DNA from: Stutzerimonas xanthomarina DSM 18231
GTDB lineage: Bacteria > Pseudomonadota > Gammaproteobacteria > Pseudomonadales > Pseudomonadaceae
Assembly: GCF_900129835.1 (NCBI RefSeq)
Contig: NZ_FQXA01000002.1
Coordinates: forward strand, 310,001-374,000
Length of the DNA: 64,000 bases
Direction of reading: 5' to 3'
The notes under the pieces were generated by a model, which saw only the letters and a program-made list of their open reading frames with translations, was not told the origin of the DNA and searched no databases. This document shows, piece after piece, positions 11,224 through 59,454 of this stretch. Within the stretch, counting starts at the first letter, position 1; every line of letters starts with the position of its first letter. Both the position numbers and the translations under genes were made by a program.

Positions 11224-11260
11224 GATGTTGTAATACACCAGTCCCGTGCGCTCAGGGTTG

Positions 11261-11559: not shown

Positions 11560-11583
11560 TATACAGTGGCCGCTTGTTGTACA
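11560..11583. promoter_or_regulatory. Paired TATACA/TGTACA operator between divergent genes
   Basis: TATACA at 11560-11565 and TGTACA at 11578-11583 are 18 bp apart, the same geometry as in the phrB operon promoter. The TTGTAC at 11577 could itself serve as a -35 for the rightward epimerase-hemH unit (TGTAAC at 11600-11605, 17 bp away). It probably brings both divergent genes under the LitR-like regulator. Confidence 0.6.
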
Positions 11584-11653
11584 GGCGTTAACCTCAGAAT
11601 GTAACTGCTCTAAATGATCGACGCGGGACCACAGCTAAGATGCGGAGGGCTCA

Positions 11654-12553
11654 ATGAACATATTGCTCACCGGCGGGACCGGCCTGATTGGACGGGCGCT
11701 GTGCAAACACTGGTTGCCACAGGGTCATCGGCTCTGGGTTTGGAGTCGGTCACCCGAGCAGGTGGCGGAGCGTTGCGGCGAGTCGGTAATCGGCATTGGC
11801 GATCTGCGCGAGCTCGATCAGGTCCCGCTTGATGCTGTGATCAACCTGGCGGGCGCGCCGATCGCCGATCGCCCCTGGACCAAGTCTCGTCGTCTGCTGC
11901 TGTGGAACAGCCGCATCGAGTTGACCGAGCATTTGGTCGAGTGGCTTGCAACGAGGCAGCAGAAACCTGCAGTGCTGATTTCCGGCTCGGCCGTCGGCTG
12001 GTATGGCGACGGTGGTGAGCGGGAACTGAGCGAGGACGACGGTCCGGTTACCTACGATTTTGCCAGCCAGCTGTGTGCCGCCTGGGAGGAAAGTGCGATG
12101 CGAGCGGAGCCGCTGGGCATCCGCGTGATACTGATCCGGACTGGGCTGGTGCTGGCATCCCGAGGCGGCTTCCTGCAACGTCTCAGGCCGCTGTTCGCGC
12201 TCGGGCTTGGTGGCAGGCAGGGCAACGGCCGTCAGTGGATGCCTTGGATACACATCGACGATCAGATTGGTCTGATAGATTTTCTCTTGCACCAGCCCGA
12301 TGCAGGTGGGCCCTACAATGCGTGCGCACCGCAGCCGGCGCGCAACGCTGATTTTGCCAAGGCGCTCGCAGCAAGTATGGGACGTCCGGCGGTTCTACCT
12401 GTGCCTGCACTGGCCTTGAAGGTTGGCTTGGGCGAACTGTCCGGGTTGATTCTCGGCGGTCAGAAAGCGCGACCGTTGCGATTGCAGGTCGCAGGGTTTC
12501 AGTTTCGTTTCGTGACATTGGATGCGGCATTGGCGGATCTGCGCAAGGCGTGA
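11654..12553 (+). CDS. TIGR01777 (SDR39U1/YfcH) NAD(P)-dependent epimerase-like protein
   Basis: 299 residues. The N-terminal Rossmann motif is MNILLTGGTGLIGRALCK (GxxGxxG); VINLAGAPIADRPWT and SGSAVGWYGDGG are typical of the family, and a short C-terminal DUF1731-like segment contains the PALALKVGLGELSG region. It is predicted to bind a nicotinamide cofactor; the substrate is unknown. It is followed by hemH after 72 bp on the same strand, and the pair is preceded by TGTACA boxes, so it is probably part of the photo-induced set. Confidence 0.87.
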   Translation: MNILLTGGTGLIGRALCKHWLPQGHRLWVWSRSPEQVAERCGESVIGIGDLRELDQVPLDAVINLAGAPIADRPWTKSRRLLLWNSRIELTEHLVEWLATRQQKPAVLISGSAVGWYGDGGERELSEDDGPVTYDFASQLCAAWEESAMRAEPLGIRVILIRTGLVLASRGGFLQRLRPLFALGLGGRQGNGRQWMPWIHIDDQIGLIDFLLHQPDAGGPYNACAPQPARNADFAKALAASMGRPAVLPVPALALKVGLGELSGLILGGQKARPLRLQVAGFQFRFVTLDAALADLRKA

Positions 12554-12625
12554 CCGCTGTGTGAAAATAGTGCCGCGACCAACGGGTTGCGGCGCGATCC
12601 ATTAAATCAGCAGTTGGAAATGTGC

Positions 12626-13651
12626 ATGTCCGAGCAGGCGTTGTTGTTGGTCAATCTGGGTTCTCCGGCGTCCACCGAAGTGGCCGATGTACGCCGCTAT
12701 CTCAACCAGTTCCTGATGGACCCCTATGTCATCGATCTGCCTTGGCCCGTTCGCCGGCTGCTGGTCTCGCTGATCCTGATCAAGCGCCCGGAACAGTCGG
12801 CGCATGCCTATGCTTCCATCTGGTGGCCAGAAGGTTCGCCCCTGGTAGTGCTCAGCCAACGCTTGGCTGACGCCGTCCGGCCGCATTGGAAAGAGGGCCC
12901 GGTGGAACTGGCGATGCGCTATGGCGAATTGTCGATTGAGCGCTCGCTGTTGAAAGTGGCAGGGCAGGGCATCAGACAGGTCACCTTGGCGCCGCTGTAT
13001 CCGCAGTTCGCGGACAGCACCACGACCACCGTCATTGAAGAGGCGCGACGGGTGATTCGCGAGCGTAACCTCGACATTCAGCTGTCGATCCTGCAGCCGT
13101 TTTTCGACCAGCCGGAATATCTCGAGGCGCTGGTTACGAGTGTCCAACCGCACCTGGAGCAACCATTCGACCATCTTCTGCTGAGCTATCACGGTTTGCC
13201 TGAGCGACATTTGCGCAAGACGGATCCGACCGGCGCGCATTGCCTGAAAACCGATGATTGCTGCCAGCGTGCCGAAGGCGCGGTGCTTGCCAGCTGCTAC
13301 CGCGCCCAGTGCATTCAGAGCGCAGCTGCATTTGCCGAGCGTGCCGGCTTGCGACCCGAACAGTGGTCGGTGTCGTTCCAATCACGACTGGGACGCGCCA
13401 AGTGGATCGAGCCCTATACCGAGGCGCAGCTGGAAGAGCTGGCGGCCAGAGGCGTGAAGAAGTTGCTGGTGATGTGCCCTGCGTTCGTGTCCGATTGCAT
13501 CGAAACGCTTGAGGAAATCGGTGATCGAGGCCGCGAACAGTTCGTTGCGGCCGGTGGTACGGATCTACAGCTGGTCCCTTGCCTGAATACCCATGAGCAG
13601 TGGGTGCAGGCGCTGGTCACCTTGTGTCGACGGGCCCCGCTGGCGTTGTAA
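12626..13651 (+). CDS. hemH: Ferrochelatase
   Basis: 341 residues from ATG 12626 ([11 protein letters not shown] start). It inserts ferrous iron into protoporphyrin IX, the last step of heme b synthesis. The catalytic histidine lies in [19 protein letters not shown], and the C-terminal [17 protein letters not shown] and [21 protein letters not shown] are diagnostic. Between residues ~208 and 232 there is a cysteine-rich stretch ([16 protein letters not shown]), unlike E. coli HemH. This could be an iron-sulfur or redox site, but that is a guess. Placing hemH in a light-controlled unit may limit photosensitising free porphyrin. Confidence 0.93.
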
Positions 13652-13688
13652 GCGGCCCATCTCGGCGTGGGGTAAGCGAATGCGACCC

Positions 13689-39791: not shown

Positions 39792-41651
39792 TTAGCGTTT
39801 GGCGGTCTGCTTGTCCCAGCTCGGGATCCGGAACACCCAGAACGAGCCGCCTTGCGCAACAGGCTTGGTCAGCGCTGCCATGTCACCACCCCACAGCGGC
39901 ACGGCGCCACCGTAGCCGACGGTCACTCCGATGAATTGCTCACCGTCCTGCTGCCAGGTGATGGGCGGGGCGATGATTCCGCTGCCGGTCTGGAATTTCC
40001 ACAGCTCTTCGCCGGTTTTGGCGTTGAAGGCTTTCAGGTAGCCGTCGCCAGTCCCGGTGAATACCAGATTGCCTTGGGTGGCAAGCACACCCGCCCAGAG
40101 CGGCAGCGGTTCCTTGTGTTCCCAAGCGACCTTGCCCGTGGTGGGATCCATGGCGCGAAGAATGCCGACGTGATCGTCGTACATGCGCTTGATGCGAAAG
40201 CCCTGACCGAGATAGGCATTACCCTTCTTGTAGCTGACCTCTTCGGTCCAGTAGTCCTCTTTCCAATGGTTGGCCGGGACGTAGAACAGTCCGGTGTCCT
40301 GGCTGTACGCCATGGGATTCCAGTTTTTGCCGCCGAGAAATGGCGGCGAAACTTCTACTGACTTGCCACGCGCTTCGCCTGGCTCGGGCATCGGTGGACG
40401 CTGGCCTTCGTTCTCGACGGGTCGTCCGGTCTTCAGGTCGATGTGGCTGGCCCAGGTAATGTTGTCGACGAACGGAAACGCATTCTGCAGCTTGCCATCT
40501 TCGCGATCGACCACGTAGAAGAAGCCATTGCGATCGGCGTGGGCCGTCGCCTTGACGGTTTTTCCATCCTTGTCTTTGTAATCGAACAGCACCAGCTCGT
40601 TGTTTCCGGAGAAATCCCAGGCATCGTTGGGCGTGTGCTGATAGAACCACTTTACTTCCCCGGTGGTGGCATCGACACCGACTTGCCCAGAGGTATAGAG
40701 GCTGTCGTAGTCTTTCGGCTCTCCGCCATCAGCGGTGCGCGCCCAACCGTTCCAGGGCGCGGGGTTTCCCGCACCAACGATGATGGTGTTGGTCTCGGCA
40801 TCGAAGCTCGCACTCTGCCAAGGCGCGCCGCCACCCTGGCTCCAGGCCTCTTTCTTGCCGGTGGGTGAACTGGGGTCATCAGGCCAGGAGGGCGCCTTGA
40901 CGTCCCCGGTCGGTGTGCTGTCTTTGCCGTTGAGTCGACCCACATGGCCCTCGACGAAGGGACGCATCCAGACCTCCTCGCCGGTATCTGGATCGCGGGC
41001 GAACAGCTTGCCGACAACGCCAAATTCGTCGCCGGAGCTGCCATGAATCAACAGCACCTTGCCGCTTTTCTGATCCTTGATCAGGGTTGGTGCGCCGGTC
41101 ATAGTGTAGCCCGCGCCGTGATCACCGAACTTCTTCTTCCAGACGACCTTGCCGGTGTCCTTGTTCAGCGCGACTACCTGCGCATCCAGCGTGCCGAAGT
41201 AGATCTTGTCACCATAAATCGCCGCACCTCGGTTGACGACGTCACAGCAGGGTCGGATATCCGCAGGCAACCGGTGTGCGTAGCTCCAAAGCCGTTTGCC
41301 TGTGCGCGAATCGAGCGCGAACACGCGCGAGTAAGAACCTGTCACATAGATCACACCGTCATGCACGATGGCCTGGGATTCCTGTCCCCGCTGCTTCTCG
41401 TCACCAAAGGAAAAGGACCAGGCTGGCGTCAATTTGAAGACGTTTTCATCATTCACCTGATTCAGCGGGCTCCAGCGCTGGGCATTGGTGCCCAGGCCGT
41501 ACTGCAATACGTTGTCGGTCGAAAGATGGTCGTTGGCGATGTCGTCCCAGGTGACGGTCTTGGCGTCTGCCAAGCCGCTGAGTGAGAGACCGCCAATCAG
41601 AACGGCTATGGCGAGGGGGCGTTTGCTGCCCAGGGGGGCTGTTGTTGTCAT
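39792..41651 (-). CDS. exaA: PQQ-dependent alcohol dehydrogenase, calcium type (ExaA/PedE)
   Basis: 619 residues from ATG 41651 (AAGGGA upstream), with a signal peptide ending near GLADA. It is an eight-bladed propeller with repeated W-docking motifs ([33 protein letters not shown]). The vicinal disulfide is in RPCCDVVNRGA. The catalytic Asp is residue 346 in NDAWDFSGNNE. Two residues on is Ser348, where lanthanide enzymes have a second Asp, so this is the Ca2+-dependent form. It oxidises ethanol and other primary alcohols in the periplasm and passes electrons to the cytochrome encoded divergently at 41977. Two 7-2-7 dyads lie between them. Confidence 0.93.
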   Translation of the reverse strand: MTTTAPLGSKRPLAIAVLIGGLSLSGLADAKTVTWDDIANDHLSTDNVLQYGLGTNAQRWSPLNQVNDENVFKLTPAWSFSFGDEKQRGQESQAIVHDGVIYVTGSYSRVFALDSRTGKRLWSYAHRLPADIRPCCDVVNRGAAIYGDKIYFGTLDAQVVALNKDTGKVVWKKKFGDHGAGYTMTGAPTLIKDQKSGKVLLIHGSSGDEFGVVGKLFARDPDTGEEVWMRPFVEGHVGRLNGKDSTPTGDVKAPSWPDDPSSPTGKKEAWSQGGGAPWQSASFDAETNTIIVGAGNPAPWNGWARTADGGEPKDYDSLYTSGQVGVDATTGEVKWFYQHTPNDAWDFSGNNELVLFDYKDKDGKTVKATAHADRNGFFYVVDREDGKLQNAFPFVDNITWASHIDLKTGRPVENEGQRPPMPEPGEARGKSVEVSPPFLGGKNWNPMAYSQDTGLFYVPANHWKEDYWTEEVSYKKGNAYLGQGFRIKRMYDDHVGILRAMDPTTGKVAWEHKEPLPLWAGVLATQGNLVFTGTGDGYLKAFNAKTGEELWKFQTGSGIIAPPITWQQDGEQFIGVTVGYGGAVPLWGGDMAALTKPVAQGGSFWVFRIPSWDKQTAKR

Positions 41652-41810
41652 GGTTGGTTTCCCTTGGTCGATTCGGACGGGGCCAACCGCTCGCTGCGCA
41701 GCGAGAGGCTGGTCCGGCGATTCGATTATTGGGACGACGCAGCGACAGCTGATACGGAAAAGCTCCCGCTGATTCAGGGAAAACTTCCCAATCCGCCTGT
41801 GTTTTCGACC

Positions 41811-41863
41811 TGCTACCTGGGTGCTGTGCCGGTGTCGCACGAGTCCCTACTACCAAGGGAGGA
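41811..41863. promoter_or_regulatory. Two 7-2-7 dyads in the exaA-exaB divergent promoter
   Basis: Site 1 at 41811-41826 is TGCTACC-TG-GGTGCTG, almost perfectly symmetrical. Site 2 at 41848-41863 is TACTACC-AA-GGGAGGA. Their centres are 37 bp apart (about 3.5 helical turns). They lie 160-212 bp upstream of exaA and 114-166 bp upstream of exaB, suitable for a response-regulator activator. Confidence 0.65.
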
Positions 41864-46249: not shown

Positions 46250-46361
46250 GGAAAATCGGTACTGCGTGTAATTGTTGCAGGAGCGGCAAGATCCAAGAAT
46301 CGCTACTAGACCGGGAAAACTTCCCGGCGACGATAACAATGAACCCGCAGAGGTAGCCGCA

Positions 46362-48140
46362 ATGAAGCACACCGGTCTTCGCAAGCCCTTCGCCCTGACA
46401 GCGCTTTGCGCCGCCATGGCAGTGTCCAGCGTGTCGGCATGGGCAGTCACCGATCAGGAAATTCTCGATGACGCCAAGTCCACCGATCAGATCGTTACCA
46501 ACGGCCTGGGGCTGCAAGGCCAGCGCTACAGCACCCTGGATGCCCTGAACACCGAGAACGTCACTCAGCTGCGCCCGGTCTGGGGCTTTTCCTTAGGGGG
46601 CGAAAAGCAACGCGGCCAGGAAGCGCAGCCGCTGATCAAAGATGGTGTGATGTACCTCACCGGCTCCTACTCGCGCGTATTTGCGGTCGACGCCCGTACC
46701 GGCAAGGAACTGTGGCAGTACGACGCCCGCCTGCCGGATGGCATCATGCCTTGCTGTGACGTGATCAACCGTGGCGTGGCGCTGTATGACGACCTGGTTA
46801 TCTTCGGCACGCTGGATGCCAAGTTGGTCGCGCTGAACAAGGACACCGGCAAGGTCGTCTGGAAAAAGACCGTCGCTGACTACAAGGCTGGCTACTCGAT
46901 TTCTGCCGCGCCGATGGTGGTAAAAGGCAAGTTGATCACTGGCCTGGCCGGCGGTGAGTTCGGCGTAGTTGGCATGATCCAGGCGTTCAACCCAAAGAAT
47001 GGCGAGCTGCTGTGGACCCGTCCGACCGTCGAAGGTCACATGGGCTACGTGATGAAGGATGGCAAAAAGGTCGAAAACGGCATCTCTGGCGGCGAAGCCG
47101 GTAAAACCTGGCCGGGCGATCTTTGGAAGACCGGCGGTGCCGCGCCTTGGCTGGGTGGCTACTACGATCCGGACACCGATTCGCTGCTGTTCGGTACCGG
47201 CAACCCCTCACCGTGGAACTCGCACCTTCGCCCCGGTGACAACCTGTATTCCTCCTCGCGCCTGGCGCTCGATCCGGACGACGGCTCGATCAAATGGCAT
47301 TTCCAGTCCACGCCCCATGACGGCTGGGACTATGACGGTGTGAACGAACTGATCTCCTTCGATTACAAGGAAAACGGCAAGACCGTGAAGGCAGCGGGTA
47401 CAGCGGACCGTAACGGCTTCTTCTATGTGCTAGATCGCACCAACGGCAAGTTCATTCGCGGCTTCCCGTTCGTGGACAAGATCACCTGGGCCAAGGGGCT
47501 GGACAAGGATGGCCGACCGATCTACGACGACGCCCACCGTCCTGGCGCACCAGGAGAGGCCGACAAGGGCAAGACTGTCACCGTGGCGCCATCATTCCTC
47601 GGCGGCAAGAACTGGATGCCAATGGCCTACAGCCAGGACACCGGACTGTTCTACGTTCCGTCCAACGAGTGGGCGATGGACATCTGGAACGAAGGCGTCG
47701 CTTACAAGAAGGGTGCAGCCTATCTGGGTGCCGGCTTCACCATCCATCCGCTGAACGAGGAGTACATTGGCGTGCTGCGCGCCATTGATCCGAAAACCGG
47801 CAAGGAAGTCTGGCGTTACGAGAACTACGCGCCGCTATGGGGTGGTGTGCTGGCCACCAAGGGCAATCTAGTGTTCACCGGCAACCCGGAAGGGTTCCTG
47901 ATGGCGTTCAATGCCAAGACGGGAGAGAAGGTCTACGAGTTCAACACTGGCTCCGGCGTGATCGGTTCTCCGGTTACCTGGGAAATGGATGGCGAACAGT
48001 ACGTTTCGGTCCTCTCCGGCTGGGGCGGCGCTGTACCGCTCTGGGGCGGCGAAGTCGCCAAGCGCGTCAAAGACTTCAACCAGGGCGGCATGGTCTGGAC
48101 CTTCAAACTGCCGAAGGAGCAAGTCGTAGCCAAGCGTTGA
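46362..48140 (+). CDS. pedH: PQQ-dependent alcohol dehydrogenase, lanthanide type (PedH/ExaF)
   Basis: 592 residues, signal peptide to VSAWAV. Quinoprotein propeller with the vicinal disulfide [10 protein letters not shown], the PQQ-cavity segment [11 protein letters not shown] and tryptophan-docking motifs ([21 protein letters not shown]). The catalytic Asp is residue 323 in [11 protein letters not shown], with a second Asp at 325. That Asp-x-Asp pair is the hallmark of La/Ce/Pr/Nd-dependent enzymes such as XoxF, ExaF and PedH, in contrast to Ser in the paralog at 39792. It oxidises alcohols and aldehydes in the periplasm. It is followed by a terminator and divergent from a binding-protein gene. 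Confidence 0.93.
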
Positions 48141-48551: not shown

Positions 48552-49409
48552 TCATTTCCAAGGGGCTCGCAGCAAGCGACGAGCCAACCATGGACCTTGA
48601 TGCAGCAATGCCGCATGGACCTGTACCAGCTGCGCACCCGCGTTCAGGCGCCCCTGAAGATCGGCGGCGCTCTGAATTCCTCCAACCGACATCAGCGTAA
48701 GTCCCCCACCGCAGAAGCTGTGCAAATGCTCGATCTGCTCGCAGGCTTGCGCCTGTTGGCGCTGGTCTTGCCAGTCGTGGTAACGCTGGCGCGTTGCAGG
48801 CGGTCCTGGATCATGAGCGACGAGCAGGCCATCAAAGCCTAGTTCCAGCAGCAGACCTGCGAGTGAGAACGGAATTTGCGCTGGCAGGCAACGTAGCTTG
48901 GCAACCAACGGAACCCGACGATTGCCTGCCTGATTCAGGTGCTGCTGTTGTTGACGAAGCGCAGTGAGCAACTGACGCAAGCGCGCGTCCTGTTGTAATA
49001 GCGGTGCGCTGGCCGGGCCGATCAGGTTAAGCACCAGGTAGTCGGCATGCGGCCAGCCGTTACTCAGCATGGAGCACGCTTCGGCCGTTGATTGCGATGC
49101 GTCCAAGGTCAGGTTAATGCCAAGACGCGCGTCACCGTGGTGCGCAGGCGCCAGGCTGGCAACCTGATCGAAGGTCAGGCTGCCGATTTCATTGAAACCA
49201 AAACCCAGTGCGGCGACCCGACGACCGAGCCGTCCGCTGTGGTCGAAGCCGGCTGCGATACCCAATGGGGAGGGGAAGCGCAGGCCCATCGCCGTTACCG
49301 GACGGCTGATCGCAAGGGTGGGCATGTGGCATGCCATATCGACGAGACCCAGTGCGAGTCGCTGTGTCAGGTGCTTGCGCAGGGCGTGAAGATCGAATTT
49401 TTCAGCCAT
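48552..49409 (-). CDS. Dihydroorotate-dehydrogenase-like flavoprotein, catalytically divergent
   Basis: 285 residues, about 50 shorter than quinone-linked PyrD. Family features kept: SPLGIAAGFDHSGR (counterpart of GLDKNG), FNEIGSLTF, LVAKLRC (counterpart of the VKIAPDL lysine strand) and the phosphate-binding LMSVGGIQSA. The catalytic strand NxSSPNTPG of PyrD is replaced by LNLIGPASAP, so the catalytic serine is missing and orotate synthesis is unlikely. FMN binding is still plausible. It starts inside the SerC-like gene (8-bp overlap) and is the last gene of the coupled pqqA2 cluster, suggesting a redox step on that cluster's product. Confidence 0.75.
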   Translation of the reverse strand: MAEKFDLHALRKHLTQRLALGLVDMACHMPTLAISRPVTAMGLRFPSPLGIAAGFDHSGRLGRRVAALGFGFNEIGSLTFDQVASLAPAHHGDARLGINLTLDASQSTAEACSMLSNGWPHADYLVLNLIGPASAPLLQQDARLRQLLTALRQQQQHLNQAGNRRVPLVAKLRCLPAQIPFSLAGLLLELGFDGLLVAHDPGPPATRQRYHDWQDQRQQAQACEQIEHLHSFCGGGLTLMSVGGIQSAADLQGRLNAGAQLVQVHAALLHQGPWLARRLLRAPWK

Positions 49410-50499
49410 GGATGCGCTCGAACCGTGTCATGAATTCCACCAGTCGATCCACGCCTGCCAGCGGCATGGCGTTGTACAAGCTGGCGCGAATGCCGCCTAC
49501 GGCAGCGTGGCCGGCCAGATGGTGCAGGCCGACATGCTCGGCTTCGCTGAGGAACGCCGAAAGCAGGCGCGGTTCGCGGAGCTCGAAACAGACGTTCACC
49601 TTCGAGCGATCCACGGCGGGCTGCCGGCAGTGATACAGGCCGCTGTGGTCAATGCAAGCGTATAGACGCCGGCTTTTTCGCTCGGTGGCCGCAGCCATCG
49701 CGGCGAGGCCGCCCTGATACTTGATCCAGCGCAGCATCAAGTTGGCGACGTACAGGGCGAAGGTCGGCGGAGTATTGAAGCGGCTCTGTTGCTCGGCCTG
49801 TACCGCATAACTCAACGCCGAGGGCAGCGAAGGTTGCGGTGGTTGCAGCAGGTCATCGCGCACGATCAGCAGACACAGTCCGGCGACGCCAAGATTTTTC
49901 TGCGCACTGGCATAGATCAGGCCGAAGCGCTCGACCGGGACTGATCGGGTAAGGAAGTCCGAAGTCATGTCGGCAACCAGCGGCACCGACAGTTCCGGGA
50001 AGTGCGGTAGTTGCAGGCCGTTACCGGTTTCGTTACTGGTGATATGGCAGTAGCCAGCGTTCGGGTCGCACTGCCAATCCTGAGCGGCTGGCAGTGCGGT
50101 AAAATTTTGTGTCGAGCCACTGGCCATGACACTGACTGGTGCGTGCCGTCGGGCCTCGACAATCGCCTTACGCGCCCAGTGGCCGCTTTCCAGATAGTCG
50201 GCGCTCTGTCCGGGCCGCAGCAGGTTGAGCGGCACCAGGCCGAACTGCGCCGAGGCACCGCCCTGTACAAACAGCACCCGGTAGTTTTGTGGAATCGACA
50301 GCAGCGTGCGCAAATCCTGTTCGGTCTCCGCCATCAGTTGCTTGAATGCGGAGGTTGTGAACGGCTGTTCAAGCATCGAGAAGCCACTGCGATTCCAGTC
50401 CGGCAGTTCGTCGCGGATCTGCGCCAGTACCGCGCTCGGCAGCATCGCCGGGCCGGCGGCAAAACTGTAGCGCTCAGTCTCAGAAGATATGCAGGCCAT
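49402..50499 (-). CDS. SerC-like PLP aminotransferase
   Basis: 365 residues from ATG 50499. Strong phosphoserine-aminotransferase pattern: YSFAAGPAMLPSAVL, LFVQGGASAQFGLVPLNLL, HITSNETGNGL, the PLP lysine in YASAQKNLGVAGL, FNTPPTFALYVANL and GGIRASLYNAMPL. It would move an amino group between glutamate and a 3-phosphohydroxy-2-oxo acid. A housekeeping serC is normally elsewhere in Pseudomonas, so this copy may be specialised. It overlaps the upstream membrane-protein gene by 20 bp and the downstream flavoprotein gene by 8 bp. Confidence 0.82.
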   Translation of the reverse strand: MACISSETERYSFAAGPAMLPSAVLAQIRDELPDWNRSGFSMLEQPFTTSAFKQLMAETEQDLRTLLSIPQNYRVLFVQGGASAQFGLVPLNLLRPGQSADYLESGHWARKAIVEARRHAPVSVMASGSTQNFTALPAAQDWQCDPNAGYCHITSNETGNGLQLPHFPELSVPLVADMTSDFLTRSVPVERFGLIYASAQKNLGVAGLCLLIVRDDLLQPPQPSLPSALSYAVQAEQQSRFNTPPTFALYVANLMLRWIKYQGGLAAMAAATERKSRRLYACIDHSGLYHCRQPAVDRSKVNVCFELREPRLLSAFLSEAEHVGLHHLAGHAAVGGIRASLYNAMPLAGVDRLVEFMTRFERIHG

Positions 50500-50983
50500 G
50501 ACCACCGCTTGCCATCAAAAACAAAAGGGGAAAGGAGAGGATGGTGTTGCTGCGTGAGGAGAGGAAGGTGATCCGCGAGCAGCGTACCCGCTCCTCCAAT
50601 GTCGCGGGTACGAAGCCGAGCAGCTTCTTCTGATGCGGCCAGAGCACCAACCAGAGGTTGAGCAGCATCAGCGTGCCGATCCAGGCGCCGAGGCCGATCA
50701 CCGCCAGCGGCCCCTGCAACAACAGCGCATCGGCCAGCCAGCCGCGCTGCCAGAGCATCAACATGCCAGACACCCAGACCACGAGGGAGGCGTAGCGAAA
50801 GATGCCGTGCTCACGCTTCATCCGCGTCTCAAGATCGCGATTGAGCGTGGCGGTATCGATGCCGTTCTGCAACGGCACGAAACGCGGGTTCTGGATAAAG
50901 TTGGCGTAGTTGTGGCCGACCCAGACCAGCGCGAACAACAGATGCGCATAGCGAGCCAGCACATCGAGCACAGGCATTTGCAT
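50480..50983 (-). CDS. PuuD/urate-oxidase-N-like four-helix membrane protein
   Basis: 167 residues with about four membrane helices (around residues 8-26, 62-78, 86-112, 148-162). Histidines lie near helix ends (RYAHLLFALVWVGHNYANF, WPHQKKLLG, GGHGLHIF), as in membrane heme or quinone proteins of the urate-hydroxylase N-terminal type. Strong ribosome-binding site GGAGG five bases before ATG 50983. It overlaps the SerC-like gene. In this cluster it may pass electrons between the membrane and the flavoprotein; this is inference. Confidence 0.7.
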   Translation of the reverse strand: MQMPVLDVLARYAHLLFALVWVGHNYANFIQNPRFVPLQNGIDTATLNRDLETRMKREHGIFRYASLVVWVSGMLMLWQRGWLADALLLQGPLAVIGLGAWIGTLMLLNLWLVLWPHQKKLLGFVPATLEERVRCSRITFLSSRSNTILSFPLLFLMASGGHGLHIF

Positions 50984-50992
50984 CGGCGCCTC

Positions 50993-51085
50993 CTAGATCA
51001 GTACGCGCAGCAGCAGGTAGCAGCCAAGCGTCAGCGCGAGCCCGGCGCTTACGGTGCCGCCAAACGAGTCATGGGGTAGTTTCAA
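50993..51085 (-). CDS. 30-aa single-span membrane peptide in the pqqA2 cluster
   Basis: A frame with TTG start at 51085 reads MKLPHDSFGGTVSAGLALTL followed by GCYLLLRVLI, then TAG. Residues ~10-30 form one membrane helix. A GGGGG-rich ribosome-binding site lies just upstream within the end of pqqE2, which it overlaps by 17 bp; the next gene begins 10 bp after its stop. Small single-span peptides often stabilise membrane oxidoreductases, so it may be a subunit of the PuuD-like protein. Unrecognised family. Confidence 0.55.
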   Translation of the reverse strand: MKLPHDSFGGTVSAGLALTLGCYLLLRVLI

Positions 51086-52214
51086 ATGCCACCCCCTGGC
51101 TGGCCTGACGGGCGATCAGCGTGCCTTGCGGGCGGGTCGCATCCTGCGCCAACTCCACGGCCTGGCGAATCAGCTGGTGATGGGGTGATTTGCTGCACGC
51201 CGGGTCAGTGTTTGCACCGTTGCCAGTCAGCAGCAGCGCTTGGCAGCGACAGCCGCCGAAGTCCTTTTCCTTTTCGTCACAGCTGCGGCAGGGCTCGGGC
51301 ATCCAGGCATCGCCGCGGTAGAGGTTGAATACCGGCGAGTCGTGCCAGATCTGTTCCAGGCGCTGCTGACGAACGTTGGGAAATTCGATGTCCTTGAAGT
51401 TGGCCGCCTGCGAACAGGGCAGCACGTTGCCGTTTGGCGCAACCGTGACGTGAATAGCACCCCAACCGTTCATACAAGCCTTGGGCCGGCCTTCGTAATA
51501 GTCGGGAATGACGAAGAAAATAGTCAGTTGATCACCGTAGCGTGTGCGCGCCTGCTGCACTTGGTCTTCGGCGCGCTGCAGTTCTGCATGGGTCGGCATC
51601 AGTGCATCGCGATTGAGCAGCGCCCAGTTGTAGTACTGCACGTTCGCCAGTTCGAGGTACTCGACCCCCAGCTCGACGGCAAACTCGATAATGTCTGGCA
51701 CCTGAGCGATGTTCTGCCGAGTAATAGGAACGTTGAGCACCATGGGAAACTCCATGGACTTGATCAACCGCGCCATCTTTATCTTGCGCTCCCACGCATC
51801 GACACCAGCCAGCTGACGTGCCACGTCACGGTCGGTGGACTGAAAGCCGAGCTGGATGTGGCGCAGCCCGGCGTCTTTCAAAGCGTGCAGCCGCGCTTCG
51901 GTCAGCCCTATGCCAGACGTGATCAGGTTGGTGTAGTAGCCCATGCCGTCGGCCTCACCGACCAACGTTTCGAGGTCCTTGCGCAGCGTCGGCTCGCCGC
52001 CGGAAAAGCCGATCTGCATCGCACCCATGGCGCGGGCCTGGGCCATCACGTCGATCCACTCGGCGGTGCTCAACTCATCCTGGCGGTATTCGGCAAAGTT
52101 GCGCGGGTTGCTGCAGAACACGCACTGCAACGGGCACTGGTAGGTCAGCTCCAATAGCAACCAAACGGGGTTGCCGTTGCCATCAAGCCTTAGCGCGGAT
52201 CCAGCCTTTGCCAT
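51069..52214 (-). CDS. Second PqqE-like radical SAM enzyme
   Basis: 381 residues. The radical-SAM motif CPLQCVFC (CxxxCxxC) near residue 31 binds the SAM [4Fe-4S] cluster; GFSGGEPTLRKDL follows. The SPASM region keeps the cysteines of PqqE ([43 protein letters not shown]). It closely parallels PqqE at 58300 but is clearly divergent, for example NVPITRQNIAQVPD against [13 protein letters not shown]. PqqE joins Glu and Tyr of PqqA by a C-C bond; this copy probably does so on PqqA2. The start overlaps pqqD2 by 32 bp, as in the main cluster. Confidence 0.9.
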   Translation of the reverse strand: MAKAGSALRLDGNGNPVWLLLELTYQCPLQCVFCSNPRNFAEYRQDELSTAEWIDVMAQARAMGAMQIGFSGGEPTLRKDLETLVGEADGMGYYTNLITSGIGLTEARLHALKDAGLRHIQLGFQSTDRDVARQLAGVDAWERKIKMARLIKSMEFPMVLNVPITRQNIAQVPDIIEFAVELGVEYLELANVQYYNWALLNRDALMPTHAELQRAEDQVQQARTRYGDQLTIFFVIPDYYEGRPKACMNGWGAIHVTVAPNGNVLPCSQAANFKDIEFPNVRQQRLEQIWHDSPVFNLYRGDAWMPEPCRSCDEKEKDFGGCRCQALLLTGNGANTDPACSKSPHHQLIRQAVELAQDATRPQGTLIARQASQGVAFETTP

Positions 52215-52476
52215 GGGATACCTCCAGGAAATTCAGGACGCCATTGCGGATCGCGTCGATATCGGATGCGTTGTAGCTATGAGCCAGCTGATCGATCAGC
52301 TCAGCGACGTTGGTCTTGCCGTCGCAGCGTTTCAAAATTTCTCCGCCGGTGGCGTTCAGTTTGACGATGCCCTCGGGATAGAGCAGGACGTGCGCCTGCT
52401 GCGATTCCTCCCAGCGAAACAGAAAGGGCGAGCGAATCTCGTAGCAGCTGAGGGACGAAATGTTTGTTGTTGTCAT
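52183..52476 (-). CDS. Second PqqD-like peptide chaperone
   Basis: 97 residues. The PqqD core matches: [20 protein letters not shown], then IVKLNATGGEILKRCDG and a C-terminal winged-helix. PqqD binds the precursor peptide and presents it to the radical-SAM enzyme. It differs at many positions from the copy at 58050, including CEIRSPF against IPVFRRGF. Located between pqqA2 (57 bp gap) and pqqE2 (overlap). Confidence 0.9.
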   Translation of the reverse strand: MTTTNISSLSCYEIRSPFLFRWEESQQAHVLLYPEGIVKLNATGGEILKRCDGKTNVAELIDQLAHSYNASDIDAIRNGVLNFLEVSHGKGWIRAKA

Positions 52477-52533
52477 GTCTTTTATCCTCGCTCGACCGAC
52501 GTGACGGCGGTTGCAATCACGCCGGTCGTGGGC

Positions 52534-52608
52534 TTAGCGCACGTAGACGTACGCGGTGACTTCAAAGCCCAGACGCAGGTCGCAGAAGTCCGGATCGATC
52601 CACTGCAT
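52534..52608 (-). CDS. PqqA-like precursor peptide, variant (PqqA2)
   Basis: 24 codons from ATG 52608 with AAGGAGATATGCC just before it. Translation reads MQWIDPDFCDLRLGFEVTAY followed by VYVR. Compared with the canonical PqqA at 56054 ([23 protein letters not shown]) it keeps DLR.GFEVT.Y, so the Glu and Tyr that become PQQ have the same E-x-x-x-Y spacing (Glu16, Tyr20). New features are Cys9 in place of Thr, a second Tyr at 22 and a VYVR tail. It begins a coupled minus-strand cluster with its own PqqD and PqqE but no PqqB or PqqC. Confidence 0.88.
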   Translation of the reverse strand: MQWIDPDFCDLRLGFEVTAYVYVR

Positions 52609-53020
52609 GGCATATCTCCTTAGCAGGTGTTTTTTTGAAAAAACCAATGTTGCGCCTCGAAGCTAAGGCTCTTTGAGCGGTCGACTAATACGACTTTGGG
52701 ATCGGTTTTACGGGCAGTTGGTCGCGCTTTTCTGGCGCGCTAAAAATAGTTACCAGGCGGCTGGCCGCCTTTGCGTATGGTCAATTGCGCCGGGTCTGTG
52801 GAGGCCTAATCTGGCAAGTTTTTTCGGGCAAATGGCTCACTTTTTAACGCACCAGGAAGCCGGCGGCGGCTGTGCACGCGCTGCGGTTTCTACTACCAAA
52901 TGAGGAACGCTTCTGTTCCTTGGGTGCATTCCGGCCAAGCGGCTGGGTTGCCTAAGATCGTTCCATGTCCTGTCCATGTCCGGTCAGGCTCGACAAGCAG
53001 AAAAACTAGAGAGGCCGCTC
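52609..53020. promoter_or_regulatory. Divergent control region between pqqA2 and exaC, with 7-2-7 dyad
   Basis: No gene. A good dyad TACTACC-AA-ATGAGGA lies at 52891-52906, 115 bp before exaC. A weak one, AGTTACC-AG-GCGGCTG, is at 52748-52763. Near pqqA2 an AT-rich inverted repeat GGTgTTTTTTTGAAAAAACC (52626-52645) lies about 18 bp upstream of its ATG and may form a hairpin in the pqqA2 leader. No clear -35/-10 pair was settled. Confidence 0.55.
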
Positions 53021-54541
<1,521 letters not shown>

Positions 54542-54689: not shown

Positions 54690-54780
54690 ATGCCCTCGCC
54701 AAGCCCGGCGAGTAAGGGGCGAACTCCAACGCCCGTTGCACCTCAGATTCAGCATGACCCACGTTCACGAGGATTTGCTG

Positions 54781-55896
54781 ATGCCCCAATTGCTAGAACC
54801 TGCCCAGCTGAATCAGCTGCGCCTGCGCAACCGCGCCGTGCTGGCTCCGATGACCCGCGTCAGCGCCGAGCCGGAAGGGCAACCCAATGAACTGATGCGC
54901 GACTACTACCAAGCGTTTGCCCAGGGCGGCTTCGGCATGTTAATTACCGAAGGCACCTATACGGACACCGCCTATAGCCAGGGTTATCTGAACCAGCCGG
55001 GCCTGGCCACCGAGGTACAACGTGATAGCTGGAAGCCGATTGTCAGTGCGGTCCATCAGGCGGGTGCAGCCATCATCGCCCAGCTGATGCACGGCGGCGC
55101 ACAGACCCAGGGCAACATCCACCACGCCCGTCACGTCGCCCCATCAGCAGTCCAGCCTGGCGGGCGGCAGTTAAGCTTCTACGGCGGCGAAGGCCCTTAC
55201 GCGACGCCGGCGGAGATAACCGAGGCAGAAATCCAGGAAGCGATTGCCGGCTTCGTCCAGGCAGCGAAACATGCACGCGACGCCGGTTTCGATGGCGTGG
55301 AATTGCATGGCGCAAACGGCTACCTGTTGCACGAATTCATGACTGCCGAGTTCAATCAGCGCAGCGATCGGTGGGGCGGCGATTACAAGGCGAGACTGAC
55401 CCTGCCGCTGGAAATCATCCGCGCGGTGCGTGAAGCGGTCGGGACGGGCTTTGTCGTGGGTATGCGGCTGTCGCAAGGCATGGTCACCGACAGTCGGCTC
55501 AAATGGGACGGAGGGCTTGAGGCGGCGCGCTATCGTATCGCCACGCTAGCCGCCGCCGGGCTCGACTATATCCACATCACCGAAGCCGACATCAGTGCTC
55601 CGGCATTCGAGGAAAGTGAGAGTCTGGCGGCAATTGCCAAAGGTGCCGTCGAGATTCCGATCGTCGGCAATGGCGCCATCGGCACCGGTGATCAGGCGCA
55701 ACAACTGCTCGATGCCGGCGTACTGGACTTCGTGGCGATAGGCAAGGCGGCGCTGGCCAATCATGACTGGCCGCTGCGTGTACAGGAGCAGGTCCCGCTG
55801 ACCGCGTTCGACTTCGATATGTTTTCTCCGATGGCGACCATCACCAACGAGCTGGCCTGGCGCGGCACCCACGGTCGCTCCGCTGTGCGCCGCTGA
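54781..55896 (+). CDS. Old-yellow-enzyme family NADH:flavin oxidoreductase
   Basis: 371 residues from ATG 54781 (GAGGA upstream); earlier ATG 54754 is possible. FMN TIM barrel: LRNRAVLAPMTRVSAEPEG, IIAQLMHGGAQ, the phosphate-site pattern ELHGANGYLLHEFMTAEFNQ, RWGGDYKARL and EIPIVGNGAIGTGDQAQ. It would reduce activated C=C bonds of enones or nitro groups with NAD(P)H. There is no fused iron-sulfur domain. It lies between exaC and pqqA on the same strand, but no common transcript is assured. Confidence 0.87.
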   Translation: MPQLLEPAQLNQLRLRNRAVLAPMTRVSAEPEGQPNELMRDYYQAFAQGGFGMLITEGTYTDTAYSQGYLNQPGLATEVQRDSWKPIVSAVHQAGAAIIAQLMHGGAQTQGNIHHARHVAPSAVQPGGRQLSFYGGEGPYATPAEITEAEIQEAIAGFVQAAKHARDAGFDGVELHGANGYLLHEFMTAEFNQRSDRWGGDYKARLTLPLEIIRAVREAVGTGFVVGMRLSQGMVTDSRLKWDGGLEAARYRIATLAAAGLDYIHITEADISAPAFEESESLAAIAKGAVEIPIVGNGAIGTGDQAQQLLDAGVLDFVAIGKAALANHDWPLRVQEQVPLTAFDFDMFSPMATITNELAWRGTHGRSAVRR

Positions 55897-56053: not shown

Positions 56054-56125
56054 ATGTGGACTAAACCTGCTTTTACCGACCTGCGCATTGGTTTCGAAGT
56101 CACCATGTACTTCGCCAATCGCTGA
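56054..56125 (+). CDS. pqqA: PQQ precursor peptide PqqA
   Basis: 23 residues, [20 protein letters not shown] then ANR. Glu15 and Tyr19 are the two residues joined by PqqE to make the PQQ skeleton. Ribosome-binding site GAGGAA lies eight bases before the ATG. It is the first gene of pqqABCDE; pqqB follows after 48 bp. A divergent relative is at 52534-52608 on the other strand. Confidence 0.97.
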
Positions 56126-56173
56126 TTGATCTGCCCCGGCCCCGGTCGGGGCTCCGTTTTTTGGGAGCTGCCC

Positions 56174-57085
56174 ATGTTCATCCAGATTTTAGGTTCTGCT
56201 GCTGGCGGCGGCTTTCCTCAGTGGAACTGTAACTGCGCCAACTGCGCCGGGCTGCGAAACGGCAGCCTGCGTGCCAAGGCTCGCACGCAATCGTCGATAG
56301 CCATCAGCGACAACGGCGAGGACTGGATCCTCTGCAACGCCTCGCCTGATATTCGTGCGCAGCTTGAATCCTTTCCCAAGCTGCAGCCGGCACGCGGACC
56401 GCGAGACACCGCGATTGGCGCCATCATTCTGCTGGACAGCCAGATCGACCACACCACCGGTCTGCTGACACTGCGCGAAGGTTGCCCGCACGAAGTCTGG
56501 TGTACGGAGATGGTCCATCAGGACCTCACCACCGGTTTCCCACTGTTCAACATGCTTGAGCATTGGAATGGCGGCCTGCGCTGGAACCCCATCGCACTGG
56601 AAGGCAGCTTCCGCATTCCGACCTGCCCGACTCTGGAGATCACGCCAATCCCGCTGCGCAGCTCTGCGCCTCCCTATTCGCCGCACCGTAACGATCCGCA
56701 CCCTGGCGACAACATCGGCCTGCTGATCGTGGACCAGAACACGGGCGGTAAGCTGTTCTACGCACCGGGCCTCGGCAAGGTCAGCCCCGAGCTTCTGGAG
56801 CTCATGCGCAGCGCCGATTGCCTGCTCGTCGACGGCACTCTGTGGCGCGACGACGAAATGCGGGTACGTGAGGTAGGCACCAAGCTGGGCAGCGAGATGG
56901 GCCACCTACAGCAGAGTGGGCCGGGGGGCATGATCGAGGTGCTCGACAGCATGCCCGCAGCACGCAAGATACTCATCCACATCAACAACACCAATCCGAT
57001 CCTCGACGAAGACTCCGCCGAACGCGCGGTGCTCGACGAGCACGGGATCGAGGTTTCGTTCGATGGCATGAGTATCGAGCTGTAG
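56174..57085 (+). CDS. pqqB: PqqB, metallo-beta-lactamase-fold hydroxylase
   Basis: 303 residues from ATG 56174. Zinc-binding CNCANC near the N-terminus ([18 protein letters not shown]), [12 protein letters not shown] as the altered active-site loop and the end [18 protein letters not shown] are typical of PqqB. It acts before PqqC, hydroxylating the tyrosine-derived ring of the crosslinked intermediate. Second gene of the main pqq operon. Upstream in-frame codons (56126 on) lack a ribosome-binding site. Confidence 0.95.
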
Positions 57086-57180
57086 CCGGCATCCGCCCGC
57101 GATTCACCAGAGAACTCAGTGGCTGAAGGTGCTTGCCGGTGCCTGCCGGAACAGCCCGCACAACCCGTAAGGAAGTTTTT

Positions 57181-57933
57181 ATGACCCTGCCAGCCATGAC
57201 TCCGTCCGAGTTCGAAGCGGCGCTACGCGCCAAGGGCGGCTACTACCACATCCATCATCCGTTCCACCGCGCCATGTACGAGGGCCGCTCGACTCGCGAG
57301 CAGATTCAGGGCTGGGTCGCCAATCGCTTCTACTATCAGGTCTGCATTCCGGTGAAGGATGCGGCGATCATGGCTAACTGCCCGGATCGCGATACCCGCC
57401 GTGAGTGGGTCCAGCGCATCATTGATCACGATGGAAGCCCAGGCGAGGAGGGCGGCATCGAAGCCTGGCTGCGCTTGGCCGAGGCGGTGGGCCTGGACCG
57501 CGAACAGGTGCTGTCGCAGGAACTGGTGCTGCCGGGCGTGCGTTTCGCCGTCGACGCCTATGTCAATTTCGCCCGCCGCGCCGTCTGGCAGGAGGCTGCC
57601 AGCAGTTCACTCACCGAGCTGTTCGCCCCGACCATTCACCAGTCCCGTCTGGACGCCTGGCCCCAGCACTACAGCTGGATCGATGCGTCCGGTTACGACT
57701 ACTTCCGCAAACGCCTGAAGGAAGCGCGTCGCGACGTCGAGCACGGCCTGCGGATCACGCTGGAACACTACAAGACGCGGGAAAGCCAGGAGCGCATGCT
57801 GAACATTCTTCAGTTCAAACTCGATGTTTTGTGGAGCATGCTGGATGCCATGAGCATGGCCTACGAACTGGATCGTCCGCCCTACCACACGGTGACGAGC
57901 GAGCGTGTCTGGCACAAGGGCATCACGTTCTGA
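57181..57933 (+). CDS. pqqC: PqqC, pyrroloquinoline-quinone synthase
   Basis: 250 residues from ATG 57181 (GTAAGGAAG upstream). All-helical heme-oxygenase-like fold. Signature segments include [20 protein letters not shown] (His residues of the active site), [19 protein letters not shown] and [20 protein letters not shown]. It catalyses the last ring closure and eight-electron oxidation to PQQ using O2 without metal. Third gene of the operon; a short hairpin separates it from pqqD. Confidence 0.96.
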
Positions 57934-57985
57934 CTGCTTGGCTGGGTGACCTGTGATCGAGTGGCGGCAGCCCTCGCATATAAGC

Positions 57986-58012
57986 TGTAGGGCGGGCTTC
58001 AGCCCACAAGCC
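57986..58012. repeat. Short palindromic repeat between pqqC and pqqD
   Basis: TGTAGGGCGGGCTTCAGCCC followed by ACAAGCCC contains GGGC-TTCA-GCCC, a REP-like hairpin often seen in Pseudomonas gaps. It splits pqqC from pqqD and may give differential expression. The rest of 57934-58049 is empty. Confidence 0.45.
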
Positions 58013-58049
58013 CTTACCGATGATGTTTTCACTGGCGAGACAGAGGACC

Positions 58050-58328
58050 ATGAGCGCTACCCAACTGACCCAGATTCCGGTTTTTCGCCGCGGTTTCCGC
58101 TTCCAGTGGGAACCGGCGCAGAACTGCCATGTGCTGCTCTACCCCGAAGGCATGATCAAGCTGAACGAGAGCGCATCGGCGGTTCTGGGCGAGGTCGATG
58201 GCACCCGGAGCGTGGGGGCAATTGTCGCCGATCTGCAGAGCCGCTTTCCCGATGCCGAGGGCATCGAGGAGGACATCGTCGCATTCCTGGAGGTAGCCGT
58301 TGAACGGTTCTGGATCGAGCTTCGCTAA
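58050..58328 (+). CDS. pqqD: PqqD peptide chaperone
   Basis: 92 residues from ATG 58050 (GAGGACC upstream). Core [20 protein letters not shown] then [20 protein letters not shown], as in other PqqD proteins. It carries PqqA to PqqE. The gene overlaps pqqE by 29 bp. Confidence 0.95.
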
Positions 58329-59454
58329 GCCGGGTTTTGAGCCCGGTCCGCCGCTGTGGCTACTCGCCGAGCTGACCTATCGGTGCCCACTGCAGTGCCC
58401 ATACTGCTCGAATCCGCTGGATTTCGCCCGCAGCCATGAAGAGCTGAGCACAGCCGAGTGGATTGAAATTTTTCGTCAGGCGCGCGAAATGGGCGCGGCA
58501 CAACTGGGCTTTTCCGGCGGCGAGCCGTTGGTTCGCCAGGATCTGGCCGAGCTGATCAAGGCGGCACGGGACCTAGGCTATTACACCAACCTGATCACCT
58601 CTGGCATCGGCCTGACCGAGGAGAAAATCGCCTCGTTCGCCGACGCTGGGCTCGATCATATTCAGATCAGCTTTCAGGCCGCCGACGAAGAGGTGAACAA
58701 CCTGCTCGCTGGCTCGAAGAAGGCATTCGCACAGAAGCTCGCCATGGCGCGCGCAGTCAAGGCGCACGGCTATCCGATGGTGCTGAATTTCGTGACCCAT
58801 CGGCACAATATCGACAATATCGACCGCATCATTCAGCTCTGCCTGGAGCTGGAAGCGGACTTCGTCGAACTCGCAACCTGTCAGTTCTACGGCTGGGCCG
58901 AGCTCAACCGCGCCGGCCTGCTGCCGAGCAAGGAACAGCTGGTGCGTGCCGAACGCATCACCAACGAATGGCGCGACAAGCTCGCTGCCGAGAACCACCC
59001 TTGCAAACTGATTTTCGTCACCCCGGACTATTACGAAGAACGCCCCAAGGGCTGCATGAACGGCTGGGGCAACCTGTTCCTCGATATCACCCCAGACGGT
59101 ACGGCACTACCGTGCCACAGTGCGCGACAGCTGCCCATTACCTTTCCGAACGTCCGCGAGCAAAGCATCGAGCAGATCTGGAAGCACTCGATGGGCTTCA
59201 ACAAATTCCGCGGCTTCGACTGGATGCCCGAGCCGTGCCAATCCTGCGATGAAAAGGAAAAGGACTTCGGCGGCTGCCGCTGCCAGGCCTTCATGCTCAC
59301 CGGCGATGCGGCCAACGCCGATCCGGTGTGCAGCAAGTCGTCTTATCACAACAAAATTCTTGCAGCGCGTACCGAGGCCGAACAGGCTCCGCGCGGGCTG
59401 GATGAACTGACCTTCCGCAACGAAAAGGCATCAAAGCTGATTCTCAAGGTGTAG
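58300..59454 (+). CDS. pqqE: PqqE, radical SAM enzyme
   Basis: 384 residues from TTG 58300, which has GGAGGT seven bases before it inside pqqD; no better start exists. Radical SAM motif CPLQCPYC near residue 28, [13 protein letters not shown], and SPASM cysteines ([42 protein letters not shown]). It forms the C-C bond between Glu15 and Tyr19 of PqqA. Compare its paralog at 51069. Confidence 0.96.

Follow-up and report, generated by a model that had tools for sequence, protein, structure and literature searches.

Within a 64,000-nucleotide stretch of the genome of Stutzerimonas xanthomarina DSM 18231 (contig NZ_FQXA01000002.1, positions 310,001 to 374,000; hereafter the window) lies a cassette of seven genes built around second copies of pqqA, pqqD and pqqE, which form the front end of pyrroloquinoline quinone (PQQ) biosynthesis. 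Judged by its gene content, by the genomes that carry it and by the genes that surround it, the cassette probably serves as a branch of PQQ-type cofactor synthesis that needs no O2 and works during nitrate respiration, and its end product would most likely be PQQ itself. Priority for the cluster and for the anaerobic PQQ hypothesis belongs to a paper of 2025 (PMC12423496), the relevant passages of which present a pqqAED-puuD-serC-pyrD cluster in Hyphomicrobium denitrificans (Hden_0548-0553), propose that it synthesizes PQQ without O2, and name Stutzerimonas stutzeri, Halomonas, Methylophaga and Azoarcus as examples. The same passages cite earlier work according to which the PqqC reaction needs O2, and Klebsiella pneumoniae and Pseudomonas aeruginosa, which have the canonical genes only, make no PQQ anaerobically. 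If the proposal is true, the cassette would explain how quinoproteins stay active in many nitrate respirers of anoxic water and sediment, and it would represent a route to an ortho-quinone cofactor that does without O2, as well as a source of genes for anoxic PQQ production.

The cassette and its precursor

An earlier note, made from the letters of this DNA alone, had proposed seven closely spaced genes on the minus strand, and the cassette is confirmed as real and as lying at the coordinates given there. The open reading frames of the window provide all seven genes, in the following order of transcription:

52534-52608, minus strand: pqqA2, 24-residue precursor peptide MQWIDPDFCDLRLGFEVTAYVYVR with Glu16-x3-Tyr20 (PF08042, 40.1 bits)
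52183-52476, minus strand: pqqD2, peptide chaperone (TIGR03859, 85.3 bits)
51069-52214, minus strand: pqqE2, radical S-adenosylmethionine (SAM)/SPASM enzyme that cross-links PqqA (TIGR02109, 510.9 bits)
50993-51085, minus strand: TM30, 30-residue single-helix membrane peptide (LKLPHDSFGG...) with a TTG start, overlapping pqqE2
50480-50983, minus strand: PuuD-like four-helix membrane protein, matching part of Urate_ox_N (PF06181, 41.3 bits)
49402-50499, minus strand: SerC-fold class-V aminotransferase without the phosphate site (Aminotran_5, 145 bits)
48552-49409, minus strand: PyrD-like predicted flavin mononucleotide-type flavoprotein with the fold of class-2 dihydroorotate dehydrogenase (DHODH) and a changed active site (DHO_dh, 64 bits)

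From pqqD2 onward, adjacent genes overlap by at most 32 nt or lie 9 nt apart, and a gap of 57 nt separates pqqA2 from pqqD2. As the note had also said, pqqB and pqqC are absent from the cassette in the window; both stand at 56126-57933 in a separate canonical operon of pqqA, pqqB, pqqC, pqqD and pqqE nearby (56054-59454, plus strand).

It is well supported by profile scores and retained residues that PqqE2, together with PqqD2, would form the Glu16-Tyr20 cross-link as in the normal pathway. PqqA2 exceeds the cut-offs of both models of the precursor (40.1 bits against 21.1 for PF08042 and 32.1 against 20 for TIGR02107), marking it as a PqqA-type precursor with Glu-x3-Tyr, and PqqD2 (85.3 against 46) and PqqE2 (510.9 against 381) likewise score well above theirs. 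The cluster cysteines and Asp318, which we take to be an iron-sulfur cluster ligand position, are invariant in 12 aligned PqqE sequences that include ten cassette orthologues and the canonical PqqE of the window.

Precursor and enzyme belong to types of their own. Among the cassette peptides listed, the precursor is nearly frozen as GFEVTAY, mostly followed by VYVR; EVTAY occurs in all of them, whereas 31 of the 33 canonical pqqA copies, many of which are near-copies of one another, have EVTMY and the other 2 EVTLY (45 pqqA rows were compared, and the 12 of cassette type were not counted as controls). In a tree of 81 PqqE sequences a single branch (100/97) splits 19 canonical from 62 cassette rows, the groups having been assigned by locus and score, loci L052-L059 having been left out and one canonical row (L164) being very long-branched. 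Tandem copies of canonical pqqA were seen in Methylophaga and a Methylophagaceae-type bin, three in locus L179 (7085-7649) and two in L170 (4418-4770).

Conservation and distribution

The PyrD-like protein was matched at E 1e-20 or better in 36 of 298 sampled genomes of the family. Of these regions 29 were fetched, and 26 have all seven genes in order, 2 hold remnants and 1 (L051), which sits near a contig end, is without pqqA2. A scan of named genomes with a profile of the PuuD-like protein gave 72 loci, 59 of them with all seven genes in order; the 72 are a lower bound, as the scan used two peptide patterns, and include no Hyphomicrobium locus. The hosts span alpha-, beta- and gammaproteobacteria and comprise, among others, Stutzerimonas, Pseudomonas, Denitrificimonas, Halomonas/Billgrantia, Marinobacter, Marinobacterium, Motiliproteus, Methylophaga, Sedimenticola, Methylobacillus, Aromatoleum, Simplicispira and Terasakiella. 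The expectation that a coherent set, from precursor to oxidoreductase, surrounds the second PqqA is thus borne out across genera, the neighbours being kept with pqqA2 in 59 of the 72 loci, and the same count led us to reject a chance or local arrangement.

The 13 loci outside the 59 include six cut by a contig end (L088, L100, L103, L104, L111, L115), L054 without pqqA2, L119 without the PyrD-like gene and L117 with its pqqA and pqqD turned round, and the rest are without a clear TM30. TM30 is found at the same spot in 64 of the 72 loci, with a weak match in place in 4 more (L093, L095, L100, L117). Since TM30 and the PyrD-like gene are missing in some loci, the most constant partners of pqqADE are the PuuD-like protein and the SerC-like one.

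Several local departures from the standard layout were also recorded. The genes pqqA and pqqD are turned round in the Simplicispira locus L117, and the L121 cassette has two TM30-like peptides about 1.6 kb apart (6197-7913). At L051 and L054 (Stutzerimonas stutzeri TS44), pqqD2 is close to the aldB region and pqqA2 was not found there, which could reflect a deletion of the precursor or an assembly error. Two Pseudomonadaceae loci, L049 and L050, have the ends of the PyrD-like gene together with a piece of the PqqE or SerC-like gene beside aldB, and appear to be scars of cassette loss.

Host lifestyle

Growth on methanol with nitrate is known from denitrifying methylotrophs, Hyphomicrobium denitrificans among them. 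That the setting of the cassette is an anaerobic, nitrate-respiring life is strongly supported by the genes that its hosts encode. Forty-five host genomes were searched for pqqC, narG and PQQ alcohol dehydrogenase, the remaining hosts of the 72 loci being Stutzerimonas or Pseudomonas. For the controls, 369 genomes of the window's class were sampled; 52 of these are pqqC-positive, and removal of five that bear the cassette (judged by a PuuD-like profile score of at least 229 bits, against at most 139 in the others) left 47. For NosZ and UbiU the comparison covered 36 of the 47 controls, eight genus duplicates and three genomes less than 90% complete having been dropped, and on the cassette side 44 of 45 genomes, a second Sedimenticola hydrogenitrophicus having been dropped. 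narG was found in 30 of 45 cassette genomes against 9 of 47 controls (29 and 8 above cut-off; Fisher p=6e-6), NosZ in 35 of 44 against 5 of 36 (p=5e-9) and UbiU, which belongs to the ubiquinone pathway that is independent of O2, in 41 of 44 against 1 of 36 (p=5e-18), p values that overstate independence because the controls were not matched for ancestry and that, to this extent, argue less strongly for the association. PQQ alcohol dehydrogenase is encoded in 44 of the 45 hosts (41 above cut-off).

The immediate neighbourhood points the same way. Clustering of the proteins in the flanks of 52 loci (up to about 8 kb per side, with one representative named per cluster) placed ubiU in 9, ubiV in 8 and ubiT in 10 loci, the representatives scoring above cut-off (NF047963, NF047965 and NF047962), and a narX-like sensor with a weakly NarK-like transporter in 4 loci, both below their model cut-offs. 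narG lies 0.9-10.4 kb from the cassette pqqE in five genomes, and ubiU 1.8-6.4 kb away in eight. Further, the transcripts of Hden_0551-0553 fall together with those of denitrification and ubiXDTUV genes in sHdrR/SoxR mutants, according to the relevant passages of PMC12423496.

An M48 peptidase follows the cassette in nine loci, six of which also have a creatininase-family protein whose representatives score 96.7 and 91.7 against the MftE model, below its cut-off of 172; both proteins are candidate release peptidases. One locus, L107, places the cassette between PQQ-dehydrogenase-associated ATP-binding cassette (ABC) genes (TIGR03863, TIGR03864, TIGR03866) and quinoprotein relay genes (TIGR04557, TIGR04559), each scoring higher than the cut-off of its model, its two flanks (171-3207 and 10524-15170) holding the ABC genes, an M48 peptidase, a creatininase-family protein, a quinoprotein relay metallohydrolase and a SoxYZ-like carrier.

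In the window, the cassette is flanked by a PQQ alcohol dehydrogenase gene (46272-48140, plus strand) and an aldehyde dehydrogenase gene, aldB (52976-54541, plus strand). The adjoining dehydrogenase has the motif WDYDG, presumably the signature of lanthanide-type PQQ dehydrogenases, and the other one in the window (39792-41840) has WDFSG. The emphasis that the earlier note placed on a lanthanide dehydrogenase as neighbour did not hold up in the wider comparison, where the association is with nitrate respiration and anaerobic quinone synthesis and not specifically with that dehydrogenase. Between aldB and the canonical pqqA stands an old-yellow-enzyme-type flavoprotein gene (54736-55896, plus strand; PF00724, 241 bits), found at that spot in many Stutzerimonas relatives.

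Genomes with a single PqqE

The best argument that the product is PQQ comes from genomes in which the cassette has merged with the genes that it otherwise lacks. Of 47 loci examined, 7 have pqqB and pqqC next to the cassette (L082, L099, L108, L110, L113, L117, L119), and 3 further ones have a canonical operon in the flank. The cassette PqqE is the only PqqE found in those seven genomes, all of which encode a PQQ alcohol dehydrogenase; among 42 genomes searched, 13 have one PqqE copy, 27 two or more and 2 none. The PqqE of the seven single-copy genomes nest among the cassette PqqE of the 81-sequence tree, in three places. A sole PqqE beside pqqB and pqqC suggests that the cassette front end serves both back ends: PqqA, PqqD and PqqE of the cassette can apparently feed PqqB and PqqC, and the two back ends probably share their starting intermediate.

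The Motiliproteus locus (L082, strain MSK22-1) offers a close view of such a merger: directly downstream of the cassette (10884-14817) come pqqB and pqqC, then a fragment that matches pqqD, then the gene of an S9 peptidase. No canonical pqqA or pqqE was found at that stretch, and the arrangement looks as if the canonical pqqA, pqqD and pqqE had been replaced by the cassette.

PqqC was unmatched in 5 of the 45 genomes (G1037, G1044, G1051, G1054, G1058). None of these is decisive as a cassette-only producer of PQQ: four are metagenome-assembled, and in G1058 (Methylophaga sp. OBS4) the cassette lies at a contig end. The best candidate is G1054, the metagenome-assembled and maybe incomplete host of locus L107, which gave no PqqC match and encodes both cassette and quinoprotein. 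Three Billgrantia/Halomonas genomes (G1031, G1032, G1035) encode, besides two true PqqC, one more protein that weakly resembles PqqC and scores 52-56 bits where the cut-off is 240.

The back-end proteins

The SerC-like gene more likely starts at ATG 50499 than at GTG 50505, because orthologues begin the aminotransferase at MAC. Its product retains the equivalents of the Schiff-base lysine, which binds pyridoxal 5'-phosphate (PLP), and of Asp174, Gln197, Trp102 and Arg335 in 43 of 43 sequences. The SHR motif of SerC has become PF followed by Thr, Ser or Gly in all 43 (His41 to Phe; Arg42 to Thr, Ser or Gly), and Arg329 is kept in only 3. We take Lys198 of Escherichia coli SerC to be the PLP lysine, Arg335 the carboxylate arginine, and His41, Arg42 and Arg329 the phosphate ligands. 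The protein scores 410 bits against TIGR01364, below the cut-off of 443.6, and 445 against NF003764, above its cut-off of 253. On this evidence the gene is of SerC fold and is not a second SerC, its phosphate site being evidently gone and its substrate pocket apparently rebuilt.

The PyrD-like protein gave a full-length model of high confidence (predicted local distance difference test, pLDDT, 94.6), whose best Foldseek match has an E value of 1e-16 and for which the 50 PDB matches listed are quinone-type DHODH. Lys217 and the Gly-Gly of the phosphate loop are kept in 41 of 41 sequences; Ser175, presumably the catalytic residue of class-2 DHODH, is present in 9 of 41 (Gly in the window), and of Asn177 and Asn246, which we assume to bind orotate, the former is present in 1 of 41 and the latter in none. 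The score against TIGR01036 is 107.5, below the cut-off of 200. The earlier note had called this protein degenerate and DHODH-like. The likeness stands and the decay does not: with a confident DHODH-fold model and Lys217 in 41 of 41, the predicted enzyme is remodelled, not decayed.

That these two genes are the housekeeping serC and pyrD, a case which the note itself had raised, was rejected, and that they would be the sole such copies is unlikely: the phosphate ligands of SerC and other active-site residues are lost, at least 20 genomes of the same genus have no match to the PyrD-like protein and two relatives have remnants only (the window genome's own serC and pyrD were not searched).

The PuuD-like protein, of 167 residues, matches PF06181 at 41.3 bits across profile positions 148-239 of 295, and contains no CXXCH motif and no cytochrome c domain. 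All 39 sequences compared share His14, His24, His59, His162, Glu58, Glu131 and five arginine residues. The predicted model is a four-helix membrane bundle (pLDDT 88.5), and no sequence relative of the protein was found in the PDB.

Upstream region and putative control

Of 66 regions upstream of pqqA2 (65 loci and the window), 28 contain a box of the FNR/ANR type that matches 9 or 10 of the 10 positions in TTGATNNNNATCAA, against a mean of 0.92 and at most 3 in 50 dinucleotide shuffles; none of 33 regions upstream of canonical pqqA has such a box. Nine Pseudomonas loci (L060, L066, L069, L070, L072, L073, L077-L079) have an exact copy, placed at -173 to -178. The upstream sites of the window are:

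52771-52784, minus strand: FNR/ANR-box-like site TTGACCATACGCAA, 7 of 10 positions, 176 nt upstream of pqqA2; a weak copy of the Pseudomonas site
52685-52722, minus strand: two more conserved upstream boxes, ACCAANNNCCCGNAAA and CAAAGTCNTATTAG, from an alignment of 18 Pseudomonadaceae; the only exact copy in the window

A promoter scan found no sigma-70-like site.

Proposed mechanism and alternatives

It is proposed that PqqD2 would present PqqA2 to PqqE2, which would join Glu16 to Tyr20, and that a peptidase, in some lineages perhaps the M48 peptidase or the creatininase-family protein, would free the cross-linked Glu-Tyr unit. The PuuD-like protein, usually with TM30, would then stand in for PqqB and oxidise the electron-rich ring in the manner of its urate-oxidising kin, the oxygen likely coming from water and the electrons passing through a His-bound heme into the respiratory chain. 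The PyrD-like flavoprotein may stand in for PqqC by dehydrogenating the carboxylated N-heterocycle and delivering the electrons to ubiquinone, and the SerC-like enzyme would use its PLP to act on one of the amino groups that the intermediate carries. In this way periplasmic PQQ alcohol dehydrogenases could be filled without O2. The SerC-like step is the least certain of these. The full chemical scenario, in which a PuuD-type membrane hemoprotein (usually with its 30-residue partner) hydroxylates Glu-Tyr with water and a DHODH-derived flavoprotein and a repurposed SerC finish an anaerobic PQQ, or a PQQ analogue that quinoproteins use only during denitrification, is accordingly offered as a tentative possibility, held with clearly less confidence than the anaerobic branch as such.

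Several observations weigh against the O2-independent branch or against parts of its chemistry. Of the 45 cassette genomes 40 also encode pqqC (39 of them above cut-off), so that PqqB and PqqC may still be needed; narG was not found in 15 of 45 and NosZ in 9 of 44 cassette genomes, some of which are incomplete. PQQ keeps both of its nitrogens and there is no obvious place for a transaminase, which makes the SerC-like step the weakest. The PuuD-like model gave no Foldseek match at E 0.001 or better, and its VIA-align Z of about 10 to cytochromes b561 and b6f (10.3 to 4o7g) falls under the helical-bundle baseline, so that heme binding by this protein is something we infer and not a result of the comparison. 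The gene set also varies: three Marinobacter loci (L088, L102, L122) have no room for TM30, only about 20 nt separating pqqE from the PuuD-like gene; L119, from a Rhodospirillales bin, is without the PyrD-like gene and has an M48 gene directly after the aminotransferase (8533-10794); the PyrD-like gene is a fragment (9769-11358) in L121, which is still counted within the 59, and is split by a frameshift in L039, counted among the 26. As for control, the window's genus has at the same position a degenerate FNR-like box that matches 6-8 of 10 positions (each of the 18 sequences aligned retains TGA and CAA), so the evidence for anaerobic control is weaker there than in relatives, and the six testable merged pqqBC loci (L082, L099, L108, L110, L113, L119) reach at most 7 of 10 before pqqA. 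Weak boxes at the merged loci would fit one operon used both with and without O2.

The unplaced SerC-like step is the main reason for keeping a PQQ analogue as an option, and it leads to the strongest competing explanation, namely that the cassette makes a different PqqA-derived product (an analogue minus one nitrogen, another redox cofactor, a metal ligand or a signal) used in nitrate respiration, the aminotransferase giving a keto acid from the Glu-Tyr adduct. An aminotransferase kept with a rebuilt pocket and with no role in the known PQQ route, a distinct precursor subfamily, a cassette PqqE that stands apart and a second PqqE in 27 of 42 hosts would all fit such a product. The seven genomes in which a single PqqE is joined to pqqB and pqqC, every one with a PQQ alcohol dehydrogenase, speak against it, and no dedicated receptor or exporter was seen among the annotated flank clusters (most clusters from the 52 loci being unannotated), the one ABC-ATPase cluster, in 8 of 52 loci, being a mixture of unrelated proteins. 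Overall, we consider a different product unlikely, though worth keeping in mind. A lanthanophore or a secreted signal is a conceivable product of this kind, and for it, too, the annotated part of the flank clusters showed no dedicated receptor or exporter.

Much further from the data are two explanations that leave PQQ synthesis itself to the canonical enzymes. The cassette could be a backup or dosage copy, as the earlier note had allowed, whose PqqA2, PqqD2 and PqqE2 feed the canonical PqqB and PqqC and whose other genes are passengers. The presence of PqqC in 40 of 45 hosts suits this idea, which is nonetheless very improbable, since most of the extra genes keep their order together with pqqADE. 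Leaving aside the loci that a contig end truncates, nearly all have the PuuD-like and SerC-like genes behind pqqE2, in most cases joined by TM30 and the PyrD-like gene; the extra genes overlap one another in the window and remain attached to pqqE in genomes that have no second copy of it. The putative FNR-type control, moreover, differs from that of canonical pqqA. Alternatively, the extra genes might act after PqqC and reduce, modify, move or recycle finished PQQ at the membrane, as the co-occurrence with pqqC and the direct linkage of the cassette to pqqB and pqqC in seven loci could suggest. A standalone set of that kind would need no pqqADE of its own, yet the extra genes follow pqqE2 wherever the flank suffices, and G1054 has cassette and quinoprotein with no PqqC match (though the genome may be incomplete); there is little to recommend action after PqqC. 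The O2-independent branch, with PQQ as its most likely product, remains the interpretation that we favour.

Comparison with known systems

Extra and often incomplete pqq operons have been noted in some Pseudomonas genomes (PMC12997753), a paper in which the part covered does not discuss this cluster. The arrangement had seemed undescribed at the time of the earlier note; the same cluster, with Stutzerimonas named, has been in print since 2025 in PMC12423496, on the passages considered, and that was the only paper showing it in a literature search whose scope excluded preprints and most subscription papers.

Compared with the canonical pqqABCDE(F/G/H) system, the cassette shares a PqqA with E-x3-Y, a PqqD and a PqqE above curated cut-offs, and differs in having no pqqB or pqqC, four extra genes and another subfamily of PqqA and PqqE. 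Mycofactocin biosynthesis resembles it in having the precursor of a ribosomally synthesized and post-translationally modified peptide (RiPP), a partner of the RiPP recognition element type, a radical SAM enzyme, a flavoprotein and, in six loci of the cassette, a creatininase-family protein with likeness to MftE below its cut-off. PqqE2 is not MftC (TIGR03962, 97.4 against a cut-off of 265), and the precursor and flavoprotein families differ. The UbiT-UbiU-UbiV system, a neighbour in about 10 of 52 loci, is alike in that an O2-dependent hydroxylation is replaced, but its enzymes are unrelated to the cassette and its product is ubiquinone. With PuuD, a membrane cytochrome c urate oxidase that in the relevant part of PMC4562309 has an eight-helix domain and a CXXCH cytochrome c, the cassette protein shares part of the membrane domain PF06181; at 167 residues it is without both of those features. 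The closest counterpart is the cluster of H. denitrificans, as the same six genes (pqqA, pqqD, pqqE and the puuD-, serC- and pyrD-like genes) are all in the window cassette. To the passages of PMC12423496 that describe it, the present analysis adds TM30, the FNR boxes, the changed active sites, the merged single-copy operons and a controlled survey.

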